DNA of 64,000 bases from Pyrenophora tritici-repentis (taxonomy: Eukaryota > Ascomycota > Dothideomycetes > Pleosporales > Pleosporaceae), in contig NC_089390.1 of the NCBI RefSeq assembly GCF_003171515.1, positions 3,100,001-3,164,000 of the forward strand, given 5' to 3'. The translations under genes and the position numbers were made by a program. Under the pieces are notes generated by a model that ran no database searches, was not told the origin of the DNA, and saw only the letters and a program-made list of their open reading frames with translations. This document shows, piece by piece, positions 1,754-4,915 of the stretch. Position 1 is the stretch's first letter, and the number at the start of each line of letters is the position of its first letter.

Positions 1754-4700
1754 ATGGCATCTGCATCAGGTAGCGTGTTCGGTGAGACGCTTCATACAAT
1801 CACCACCACCAAACTTGAGGAGCTCGCAAAGCAACGCGTTGCCTTTGAAGAAGAGTACTCTGCGCTACTCGACTCCATAAAAGCAGAACCAGATCCACTC
1901 AAGCGTGTAGGCCTCTTACTTGATGGCTCGAAAATATGTCTTGGCATTCGGACGGACAATAAGGGAACCAAAGATGGCCGGACCAGCCGTGTAATTATCA
2001 ACCGATCCCGCAATATTCGCCTTGAGACCGATATTAGGAACCTTGATCGTTTCATTGAGCAAGCTCGCTTCGACCCCTCCGTCTCATTAAAAGTCATCGC
2101 GGACTGGGAAAAGACGCTGCTCCAATATCTTTCAGTTCAGTCTACGAAGTTTCAGTACGCGGACCTCTATGGCAAGCTCGTCACCGAATGGCTTTCTTCC
2201 GATAAGACCACGGGTGGGGATGCTGATGTTGAAATGACGGGGAGTTTTGAGGAAATACCCGGTGCAAAGAAGCTTGCTTCACGTGTCGAGTGGGAGAAGG
2301 ATGTCTTCCAGGCGGCTGGTGTAGATGAGCAAGAACTACATTCGTACCTCCAAGAGCTATTTGTAGTAAACAAGAAAGCGGGAACAGCAGCAATCCGTGA
2401 CCTACGTCAGAAAGTGGTCGAGTTTGAGAACAATTTCAACGACTCAGCGCAGTTTAACCAGTTTACTCTGCGCGAAGCAATCCAAGGGCTCCAAAACTCT
2501 GATCTTCTCTCGAATGAGAAGCGAGAGACTTTGAGAGACTTTCTTAGTAATGGTATGTGTTTGTGCCATGAAGAAGGAACGCAAATTTGACAGACTTCTT
2601 AGATGTGATCCTGCTGGAACTCTGCGACATCCTCAACATACGAATGACAGCTCTCGGCCGCTGGACTTGGGGTGCTGAAGTTCTACTAGAAGAACGAAGG
2701 AAGATCAACGGAGAGTTCTCCATCCATTTTGATTCCGATCTTCTCCAGGCAATCTTCTTGCATCACATTGGCGTAAAGTGGTAGGTTGCAACGCCTCGAG
2801 CTTCAAGGATAGAACTGACAACAACACTTGATTAGGTCTGTATTCTTCAAATCAGCATTCTCAGCCATGCATAAACACGAGGCTTGGACACGGAACGCCA
2901 CTGAGATTCCAAAAACCGACCGCATCCGGCGCTCGTATTTCTTGGGCGACCAAGGTACCAAGGTCGCCGCGAGTCTCGAACAGAGGCGCAAAAGTAGGCA
3001 TCATGCCCGATACTTCGCACACCAATTGTTGGACTTTGAAACCCAGCAAATCGAGACAGAAGAAGGTGAAGAAGAAGCCGAGTATGGTGATTATGTCGTC
3101 AAGAAGCGTAGGATGGCAGGTCAAGCCCCAGCCATTGCTATGGTATCTTCGATGCCAGGGCGCCCCAAGCAGACTGCAAGAAAATCTACTGGTGGCAAAG
3201 CACCCAGGAAACAACTTGCCTCTAGGGCCATGAGATACAGCGCGCAAGAGGATCTGCATCTGCATGAGGATATAGGGACGGATGAAGACGAAGAAGATGA
3301 GGATGATGAAGATGAAGAGTACGATTATGAAGACGACATGTACCGCCATGAATCGAAAAAACCAATGGAAGCGAAGCAAAGCCTACTTCACCTTTTATCC
3401 ACCGAAGTTATCGTCAACACACGGCTGCATGGGGAACTTACTTGTTTCCGTACGATTTTCGACTCCTGGAACTCTCTTCTGCCCCATGAGACGATTTTGA
3501 CGGTCCTCAGCTTTCTTGGTATCTCGGACAGGTGGACAAAGTTCTTTGCGCGTTACCTCCATGCACCGTTGAAGTTTGCAGATGACCCATCTTCTGAGCC
3601 GCGTTTGCGCCGTCGAGGCATGCCTGGCTCCCACACACTAAGTGATACGTTGGGCGAGACCGTACTTTTCTGCCTGGACTTTGCTGTAAATCAGGCTACT
3701 CATGGAGTGGATCTTTACCGCATTGGTGATGATGTCTGGTTTTGGAACAAGGACTACGATACCTGCACAAACGCCTGGGCCAGCGTTCTCAACTTCACGG
3801 AAATTATGGGGGTTAAGGTAGGTCTCTATCCAGTCTTTCCTCTGGGTGTTACACTAACAGCTATTCTAGTTGGATGAGAAGAAGACCGGCAGCATGCGTA
3901 TCTCGCACATTGATGAGAAGACCATCGATGACCGCCTACCAGAAGGCGAGATTCGTTGGGGTTTCTTGCAGCTCGACCCGAAGAGCGGTAGGTTCGAGAT
4001 TGACCAAAAGATGGTCGACGGCCATGTAGAAGAGCTGCGCACACAGCTACAGGGCAAATCCAAGAGTGTGATCGACTACATCCAAGCCTGGGTAAGTGGT
4101 CCAAAAATCTATTAGGTTTGGAAAAGGAGTAGACTAATTTTGTATAACAGAATTCATATGCTGCGACTTTCTTCAGCTCTAATTTCGGCAAGGCCGCCAA
4201 CTGTTTCGGCCGTGAACATGTGGACAAAATGCTCGCTACCCATCGTCACATCCAGGACAGCATCTTTCCCAAAAGCAGCATTGTACAACACCTCAAGGAC
4301 ATGATCGAACAGCGCTTCTCCGTGAAGGGTGTTCCTGATGGGTTTCTCTTCTTTCCAGTTGAGCTCGGCGGTCTGGAACTCAAGTCTCCGTTTGTGGGCC
4401 TTCTACAAACCCGGGAATCGGTGGAAGAGGATCCCTTCCAACTCATTGACAGATACAAAGAAGATGAACGCGATGACTACAATGCTGCCAAGCGCATATT
4501 CGACAGGGGTACACGCGCTAACAAACATCGCATTGAAGATACGAACTGGAAGCCTAGCGATTCTGAGGCTTTCTTCTCCTTTGAGGAGTTCACCAAATAC
4601 CGCGAAGCATTTGCTAGCGTAGGCAAGGCAAACCTGGTGAGCACATACAAGGAGTTGCTGAAGCTTCCCCGAGAGAAGCCTATCGATGCAAGCGCGGATG

Positions 4701-4915
4701 TCCAGTTTGCGTTGGCTCGACTGTCCGGCAACACCAACTTGCGGGGCATTCTTACGCACTGGGGTTCCATGGAGGCTTACTGGAAATGGATTGCTCAGAT
4801 GTATGGCCCCGAGATGATCAACATGTTTGGTGGTCTCAACGCTGTCGACTTTGGATTGCTTCCTATCGGCATGGTCTCCATGTTCAGACAGAGGCGTACT
4901 AAGTGGCAAGGTTGA
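1754..4915 (+). CDS. rvt: Cellular reverse transcriptase-related protein (rvt family) with embedded histone H3 tail
   Basis: My model has exons 1754-2552, 2594-2780, 2836-3817, 3870-4091 and 4151-4915, giving 984 residues. The N-terminus is coiled-coil-like (about residues 15-45). The middle carries polymerase palm motifs: a motif A-like FDSWNSLLPHETI (around 536-548), motif B GMPGSHTLS (590-598), motif C LYRIGDDVWFW with the Asp pair at 627/628, and, across intron 3, motif D GVKLDEKKTGS and a motif E-like WGFL. A later FPVELGGLELKSP resembles the thumb region. Length, N-terminal coiled coil and a long acidic insertion just before motif A fit the single-copy domesticated rvt genes of fungi, which are known to polymerise nucleotides but whose cell role is unclear. 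The insertion (about 403-503) contains a KKRR basic cluster, a histone H3 tail copy (438-465) and an Asp/Glu run (473-497). The expected motif A Asp may be Ile536. Intron 1 is only 41 bp. No retroelement flanks are visible. Confidence 0.82.
3161..3244 (+). other. Histone H3 N-terminal tail copy inside the reverse-transcriptase gene
   Basis: In frame within exon 3, residues 438-465 match histone H3 residues 2-29 at 24 of 28 positions, including an unbroken run KQTARKSTGGKAPRKQLAS equal to H3 K4-S22. Differences are T3 to P, K23 to R, A25 to M and K27 to Y. H3 positions K4, K9, K14 and K18 are therefore kept while K23 and K27 are lost. A KKRR cluster lies about 25 residues upstream and a very acidic run begins about 8 residues downstream. 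The match to H3 is read directly from the sequence against the universally conserved tail; any functional mimicry is inference. Confidence 0.93.

Follow-up and report, generated by a model that had tools for sequence, protein, structure and literature searches.

Copies of histone and other protein tails in the variable loop of a fungal reverse transcriptase-related protein, a possible bait

Introduction

The rvt genes of Gladyshev and Arkhipova are cellular genes related to reverse transcriptases (RTs). The accessible portions of the published reports describe them as intron-bearing and RT-like, a large insertion called loop 2a separating motif 2 from motif 3 (PMC5718144), and as single-copy, stress-linked genes for a non-templated polymerase (PMC3520738, PMC10680173); in the same portions, the RVT of N. 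crassa and its family polymerise nucleoside triphosphates without a template and are induced by translation stress (PMC3520738, PMC10680173). Here we analyse an rvt gene of Pyrenophora tritici-repentis, contained in a 64,000-nucleotide window (contig NC_089390.1, positions 3,100,001 to 3,164,000), which is the whole stretch of DNA that was analysed and provides the coordinates given below. Like the described rvt genes, it has an insertion loop (residues 408-499), a helical N-terminal extension, four introns and a single copy accompanied by a distant paralogue. The loop carries a copy of the N-terminal tail of histone H3. Computation establishes the presence of such tail copies, their place, the predicted disorder of the loop, their recurrence, and a bias by which lysines give way to other residues, mostly R or M, while arginines are retained; from these we infer that the loop may act as a bait.

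Two described systems come closest to the copy itself. As far as the accessible text of its report goes, the host protein EZHIP/CXORF67 has a disordered region that includes a copy of the H3 tail, and a methionine at the lysine site there occupies the active site of PRC2 (PMC6513997). The rvt loop likewise places an H3-tail copy within a disordered region of a host protein and has methionine at a lysine site; however, EZHIP has one short H3-K27 copy against PRC2, whereas rvt loops hold several unrelated tails, with methionine mainly at H3 K18 and H4 K16. In fission yeast, H3K9M traps Clr4; according to the available part of the report, the enzyme is dominantly blocked by an H3 tail with a K-to-M change (PMC5030085). 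This is a fungal precedent, but it concerns an introduced histone mutation, whereas rvt holds a mimic in another protein. Both are precedents for reading the rvt loop as a bait or pseudosubstrate. Additionally, the tail of the ribosomal P-stalk, SDDDMGFGLFD, is the docking site of ribosome-inactivating proteins in the accessible portions of two reports (PMC3280276, PMC5086656); the P-stalk copies found in rvt loops appear to be this same tail, and a decoy of it in a polymerase loop is proposed here. No earlier report of tail mimicry in rvt loop 2a was found in the accessible open-access literature, the 2011 founding rvt paper lying outside that search.

Results

The H3-tail copy of P. tritici-repentis

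Positions 3161 to 3244 of the forward strand encode RPKQTARKSTGGKAPRKQLASRAMRYSA, residues 435-462 of the rvt product, which correspond to residues 2-29 of H3. Against the genome's own spliced H3, 24 of the 28 residues are identical and K4 to S22 form 19 consecutive identities, the same counts as in a preliminary description made from the DNA letters. The differences from the native histone are T3P, K23R, A25M and K27Y; K4, the ARKS site around K9, K14 and K18 are kept and K23 and K27 are lost, in agreement with that description. It had also placed the copy in an intact exon between a KKRR cluster and an acidic run. Both flanks can be read in the sequence (3101 to 3112 upstream and 3281 to 3337 downstream, forward strand), and the copy lies within exon 3 (2836 to 3817), with residues 435-462 included in the annotated protein, P0003. 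Clusters of K and R resembling KKRR were found again in the loops of other homologues.

The likeness to H3, which had been called too exact for chance, was recovered by searches from either side. With P0003 as query, phmmer matched 130 PDB sequences, the best 60 of which are all H3-family chains (best E-value 5.5e-6), including one chain labelled Cse4 and a few H3/CENP-A chimeras. A search of the 40.9-Mb genome with full-length H3, in which the best candidates only were scored, returned 39 matches, and the only one confined to the tail was the rvt copy (E 3.1e-6). With H3-tail sequence that chance does not account for, the non-histone rvt protein has the sequence hallmark of a histone mimic.

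The codons were expected to differ from those of an H3 gene, and they do: 59 of 84 bases are identical, and the codons of 13 of the 24 shared residues are synonymous alternatives to those of the native gene. These synonymous differences indicate that the protein sequence was maintained long after any copying and rule out recent copying from H3 in the P. tritici-repentis genome. Together with the H3-like loops of many relatives, the codon divergence bears out the earlier suggestion of an old acquisition conserved at the protein level. The copy spans the site of the native H3 intron, which splits the Q19 codon, without an intron. Since P0003 has the same stretch, it is not spliced out of the annotated model and is not a one-off assembly chimera; a chimera is further ruled out by the P0003 cluster, which stands for 8 member sequences and 14 contigs, and by the P. 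teres orthologue, which matches H3 at 23/28. Between P. tritici-repentis and P. teres, five of the 28 mimic residues differ, three of them at lysine sites.

About 30 near-identical H3-like copies elsewhere in the genome match H3 residues 45-130 and look like known hAT-transduplicated H3-like genes. Such genes are described for P. tritici-repentis in the accessible portions of two reports (PMC3538342, PMC6710886). They share species and H3 derivation with the rvt copy, but they match H3 only from residue 45 and lack the tail, so an origin of the rvt copy from them was ruled out.

H3-like loops across fungi and controls against chance

Homologues were taken from three protein searches (the best 120 each of 593, 732 and 659 matches), yielding 234 distinct sequences, and a tail module was called where its local score exceeded the 99.9% level of shuffled loops. 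The ortholog comparison proposed earlier thus gave an H3-tail-like sequence in the same loop of 123/234 homologues, from five classes of Pezizomycotina; a single H3 insertion within one lineage is ruled out. At least 24/28 residues match H3 in 22 loops, and 27/28 match in four (Paraphaeosphaeria sporulosa, P. minitans, Periconia digitata and Clonostachys byssicola). The H3-like loops come from Dothideomycetes and Sordariomycetes, the classes to which we take the sequences concerned to belong, as well as from Leotiomycetes (Bisporella, 25/28), Eurotiomycetes (Pyrenula, 23/28) and Lecanoromycetes (Hypocenomyce, partial). When full-length H3 was used for comparison, 115/123 matches stopped by residue 38 and none went beyond residue 50. 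To judge from the sequences compared, the H3-tail mimic in rvt is old and widespread.

Several controls were applied to H3 and to the further modules described below. In shuffled loops the main words occurred at means of 0-0.3 of 177 loops (200 shuffles). Among 936 segments of the same length from the rest of the same proteins, there were no matches to the H3, H4, Sub2, RNA polymerase II (Pol II) C-terminal domain (CTD) or Som1-like modules; the P-stalk module had two, both acidic. The occurrence of the modules in the loop and, bar these two, not in the control segments marks loop 2a of fungal rvt as a mimicry hotspot. Reversed references gave 8 (H3), 12 (H4), 6 (P-stalk) and 0 (Sub2) matches, and the reversed matches lay within loops holding a forward copy in 8/8 cases for H3 and 11/12 for H4. 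An untargeted ranking of 6-mers in the first 177 loops was led by words from H3 and H4. IDYSDE/DYSDEE and GFGLFD likewise ranked high, and the same ranking lists acid runs, basic runs and lineage-specific words.

Other tails copied in the same loop

The H4 tail was called in 47/234 loops by score, 46 of them with RHR, and 31 loops contain the pattern G.GG[AV][KMRI]RHR[KRM][IVM]. As with H3, the matches are confined to the tail, 45/47 stopping by residue 30 of full-length H4. The N-terminus of Sub2 was called in 26/234 loops, the clear cases being the 16 with [IV]DYSDE; an example is MMHDEDLIDYSDEE in P0121, compared with the native MSHEEDLIDYSDEE of P. tritici-repentis. The Sub2 assignment is based on the genome's own Sub2 locus and the shuffle test. 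The C-terminus of the ribosomal P-stalk was called in 30/234 loops, 13 with a core like MGFGLFD and many others with a mere acid run. The core word occurs in 14 loops altogether, such as EEYEDEADDDMGFGLFD in P0049, and all 14 core copies stop at the last residue of full-length P2. The CTD of Pol II was found in 4/234 loops. Finally, a motif of a glutamine-rich P. tritici-repentis protein, NHALQDYQMQLMLLEQQNKKRLLMARQEQ, is copied in eight loops (P0198, P0209, P0042, P0214, P0223, P0216, P0236 and P0030), with one marginal case in addition. We take this protein to be Som1/Flo8; two pieces of its gene had no Pfam match. With the 14 core P-stalk loops counted, three kinds of module share a loop in 6 cases and two in 46, and one kind is present in 112. 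The five native tails of the P. tritici-repentis genome that were compared with the loops (H3, H4, P-stalk, Sub2 and the Som1-like protein) all match.

Individual loops were also compared with PDB sequences. The loop of P0043 joins H3, CTD and P-stalk pieces, and at E 0.011 to 6 it matched mostly chains of ribosomal P1, P0 and P2 and of the Pol II CTD; two matches were unrelated. For the P0184 loop, all 60 rows listed were H4.

In P0153, P0162, P0148, P0023, P0024 and P0133, H3 and H4 pieces are fused or permuted in a single loop, as if reshuffled. In one such fusion H4 GAKRHRKIL leads straight into H3 LASKACRKSAPSTGG, and elsewhere the second half of H3 precedes the first. Words resembling GLFG occur in 15 loops (P0005, P0007, P0021, P0051, P0056, P0058, P0059, P0067, P0070, P0105, P0190, P0193, P0212, P0226 and P0227) and may recall phenylalanine-glycine (FG) nucleoporins. 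A search of the own genome with one GLFG piece gave no match, so a nucleoporin module is proposed only tentatively. Two further loop pieces also had no match in the own genome; one of them contained GFGLFD and yet missed the native P genes, and short searches of this kind are thus weak evidence.

Turnover of the modules

Module gain and loss were followed by parsimony on a midpoint-rooted FastTree tree of 870 core columns and compared with 100 label shuffles. Presence changed 45 times for H3, 21 for H4, 8 for P-stalk, 18 for Sub2 and 4 for CTD, against shuffled means of 78, 44, 14, 25 and 4, respectively. For H3, H4, P-stalk and Sub2 the number of changes was below that of every one of the shuffles; these modules are clustered by descent, yet show much turnover. 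In close species, core identity was 0.92 as opposed to 0.46-0.72 for the rest of the loop. Over 304 pairs from 62 loops, identity averaged 0.70 in the core, 0.36 in the rest of the loop and 0.65 in the H3 part, the last figure being inflated because the rows were picked for H3 similarity; the H3 part was more alike than the rest of the loop in 289/304 pairs.

Lysines are replaced and arginines retained

Conservation within the copy was analysed in 63 loops with an ungapped H3 copy of at least 17/30 matches, 171 loops being dropped. At the six lysines, 58% of cells still show the native residue, compared to 89% at the four arginines and 80% elsewhere. Similarly, parsimony changes per site averaged 21.2 for lysines, 6.5 for arginines and 10.5 for others (lysines versus all other sites from 2 to 28, Mann-Whitney p = 0.0005, with related sequences counted as separate rows here and in the Fisher test below). 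The arginines R8 and R17 are retained in 61/63 and 62/63 loops. At K18 the residue is K in 24 loops, M in 20 and R in 14, and parsimony places 18 gains or losses of M at this site. Methionine made up 37/160 replacements at lysines versus 28/246 elsewhere (Fisher p = 0.002), and the place of H4 K16 is M in 28/49; among columns outside the loop with a majority of K (177 sequences), M is absent from the ten commonest replacements. H3 K18 and H4 K16 are known mainly for acetylation, while K9M and K27M are the kind of change known to trap methyltransferases. The methionine that an EZHIP-like pseudosubstrate would have at a methylated target, K9 or K27, is not found in P. tritici-repentis, which keeps K9 and has Y at 27.

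If the tail were kept so that marks on its lysines could be read, the lysines should be the best conserved residues. Their poor conservation speaks against modification in the manner of chromatin and for a bait or pseudosubstrate that cannot be modified. The earlier idea that the enzyme is methylated or acetylated in the manner of a histone is therefore not supported as stated. The accompanying idea, that the copy binds chromatin readers, may hold in part. PHD-type readers of K4 require a free H3 N-terminus, which an internal copy lacks; the position ahead of R2 is most often occupied by G (20/63). Binding of HP1-type (K9) or histone acetyltransferase (HAT)-type partners may still occur in P. 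tritici-repentis, in which K4, K9, K14 and K18 are kept.

The rvt gene and its predicted fold

All five exons lie on the forward strand: exon 1 (1754 to 2552, the N-terminal helical region), exon 2 (2603 to 2780), exon 3 (loop 2a and RT-like motifs B and C), exon 4 (3870 to 4091) and exon 5 with the stop codon (4151 to 4915). For exon 2, the acceptor CTTAG at 2602 and a start at 2603 reproduce P0003 exactly. The joined exons encode 981 amino acids, identical to the public P. tritici-repentis protein P0003. The variable loop occupies 3080 to 3355, and the DD of the RT-like motif C (YRIGDDVW) lies at 3728 to 3733; the RT-like fold comes from structure comparison, and YRIGDDVW is presumably its motif C. 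At about 3440-3470 a cysteine precedes IFDSWN, where the first aspartate of RT motif A would be expected, and the catalytic triad may be incomplete.

No Pfam family scored above cut-off in the four rvt homologues scanned. An AlphaFold model built with 95 sequences (mean pLDDT 85.1, pTM 0.86) is RT-like, with predicted N-terminal helices within residues 3-148 and the loop of residues 408-499 preceding the palm strands. The largest of five segments with pLDDT below 50, residues 438-484, is predicted to take in most of the H3 mimic and the beginning of the acidic run. In a Foldseek search the best 50 rows comprised R2, LINE-1, DRT9, group II intron RT, telomerase and Prp8/spliceosome chains and one viral RNA-dependent RNA polymerase, with a probability of 1.00 but low whole-chain TM-scores (0.15-0.33 by query). 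For a poorer model of the homologue P0115, RTs ranked on top along with some viral polymerases. Thus the rvt protein is predicted to have an RT-like right-hand polymerase fold without transposon parts, and a disordered loop ahead of the palm strands fits rvt with loop 2a as presented in the accessible part of its description (PMC5718144).

Relatives show 46-90% identity over 94 other sequences. The genome holds one rvt gene of this type and one 28%-identical paralogue outside the window (G000:C1:5243871-5246741), an uninterrupted frame of 956 amino acids whose loop is a poly-proline stretch with no tail module above threshold. At the place of the motif C DD the paralogue has YDR, from which it may be catalytically dead. 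In P0022, P0164, P0180 and P0216 the database gene models have additional Pfam domains beside rvt, probably through joins with neighbouring genes.

Discussion

Based on these results, we propose that loop 2a of fungal rvt is a hypervariable display of tail copies working as a bait, and we would give this reading a probability of roughly 0.42. The disordered loop would have been filled, emptied and filled again, each time with sequence closely copied from the exposed tails that proteins of gene expression carry, namely the N-tails of H3 and H4, the Pol II CTD, the Sub2 N-terminus, the P-stalk C-terminus and the glutamine-rich motif that we take to be Som1/Flo8-like. What the H3 copies keep is a scaffold of arginines, glycines, alanines and glutamines. 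With docking residues in place and many modifiable lysines shed, such a loop could bind factors aimed at the tail, be they foreign toxins and effectors or enzymes of the cell that modify it, and would escape processing. This binding would titrate the factor or signal to the attached stress-induced, non-templated polymerase; in P. tritici-repentis the present bait would be the H3 tail. The rarity of K9M and K27M, together with R being commoner than M, makes a single methyltransferase an unlikely partner. Tails drawn from along the path from chromatin to ribosome, fast change of the loop and the stress induction of rvt would fit a decoy facing changing opponents. In a more specific proposal, which we regard as rather doubtful, fungal rvt is a stress-induced defence polymerase and loop 2a a multi-bait decoy. 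The loop would be a changing collage of those tails of the cell that are targeted most (H3, H4, Pol II CTD, Sub2, P-stalk and others), with modification prevented at most lysine sites, and would catch or detect foreign agents directed against gene expression. We know of no other domesticated polymerase with integrated decoys of several unrelated host tails.

A number of observations weigh against the bait reading. None of the six modules is present in 70/234 loops, and the CTD occurs in four loops only, without clustering on the tree. No PDB sequence resembled the Sub2-like piece of P0121, and the P0193 loop gave a weak H4 match (E 2.1) ranked below an unrelated esterase (E 0.097). Among the 160 lysine replacements, K-to-R (50) exceeds K-to-M (37), and K9M and K27M are rare, each at 2/63. 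In the accessible part of the EZHIP work, an arginine in the key position leaves PRC2 uninhibited (PMC6513997). Methionine is enriched in the loops generally (4.1% vs 2.1%), so part of the K-to-M replacement may be compositional. The choice of rows (at least 17/30 matches, 63/234 loops) inflates the conservation of H3, although it alone should not put lysines below arginines. Finally, no bacterial or viral outgroup rvt that could serve as a histone-free control was confirmed in two genome scans and a scan of viral contigs.

The strongest alternative, which we nonetheless consider unlikely, widens the preliminary description: the cell's own readers and writers (chromodomains, HATs, kinases, export and translation factors) would bind the tails and tether or regulate rvt at sites of chromatin, transcription, export or the ribosome. 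That all copied tails come from the gene-expression path, as general knowledge has it, is consistent with such recruitment, as are the retention of K4, the ARKS site around K9, K14 and K18 in the P. tritici-repentis copy and the predicted disorder of the loop. On the other side, lysines are the least conserved residues, replaced in many lineages by R, M and others, and tails that differ between lineages are hard to square with one partner. Of the H3-specific link to chromatin as first described, what stands is a domesticated RT-like gene whose disordered insertion holds a real H3 mimic, but H3 is one of several tails copied in fungi.

The tails of H3 and H4 act as import signals and as DNA-binding segments. 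The copy could thus serve nuclear import or the binding of nucleic acid or histone chaperones, its basic residues and the acidic run imitating a free histone plus the acid of a chaperone. The KKRR cluster, the acid after the mimic, the retained arginines (R8 and R17) and RHR in 46/47 H4-like loops all agree with this. We find it improbable, however: the P-stalk, CTD, Sub2 and Som1-like modules are left unexplained, and the order of residues is kept although a simple basic sequence would do.

Another explanation, to which we give a small chance, is passive capture, in which the polymerase or repair would copy pieces of abundant mRNAs into the rvt gene and a tolerant disordered loop would keep them without function. 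The intron site of native H3 crossed without an intron and the fast turnover of the loop point this way. Opposed to it are the confinement of copies to tails (0/123 H3 matches past residue 50, 14/14 P-stalk copies ending at the P2 terminus), a pattern of lysine replacement unlike that of other sites, and the synonymous differences at 13/24 shared codons in P. tritici-repentis. An artefact of chance or composition can be dismissed, and is refuted for H3 and H4: although A, R, D, E, M and Q abound in the loops, many weak P-stalk matches are acid runs and reversed references yield some matches, the words are nearly absent from shuffled loops, almost all reversed H3 and H4 matches sit in loops with a forward copy, and four loops match at 27/28.

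Because the loop copies tails from histones, from the ribosome stalk, from Pol II and from a factor of mRNA export, it gives a concrete hint of whom the rvt enzyme meets. Such a loop would add a new form of mimicry, in which a cellular enzyme copies several tails of its own cell with lysines preferentially removed. If the loop is a decoy, it would be a fungal parallel to the integrated decoys of plant immune receptors and to the antiviral RTs of bacteria.

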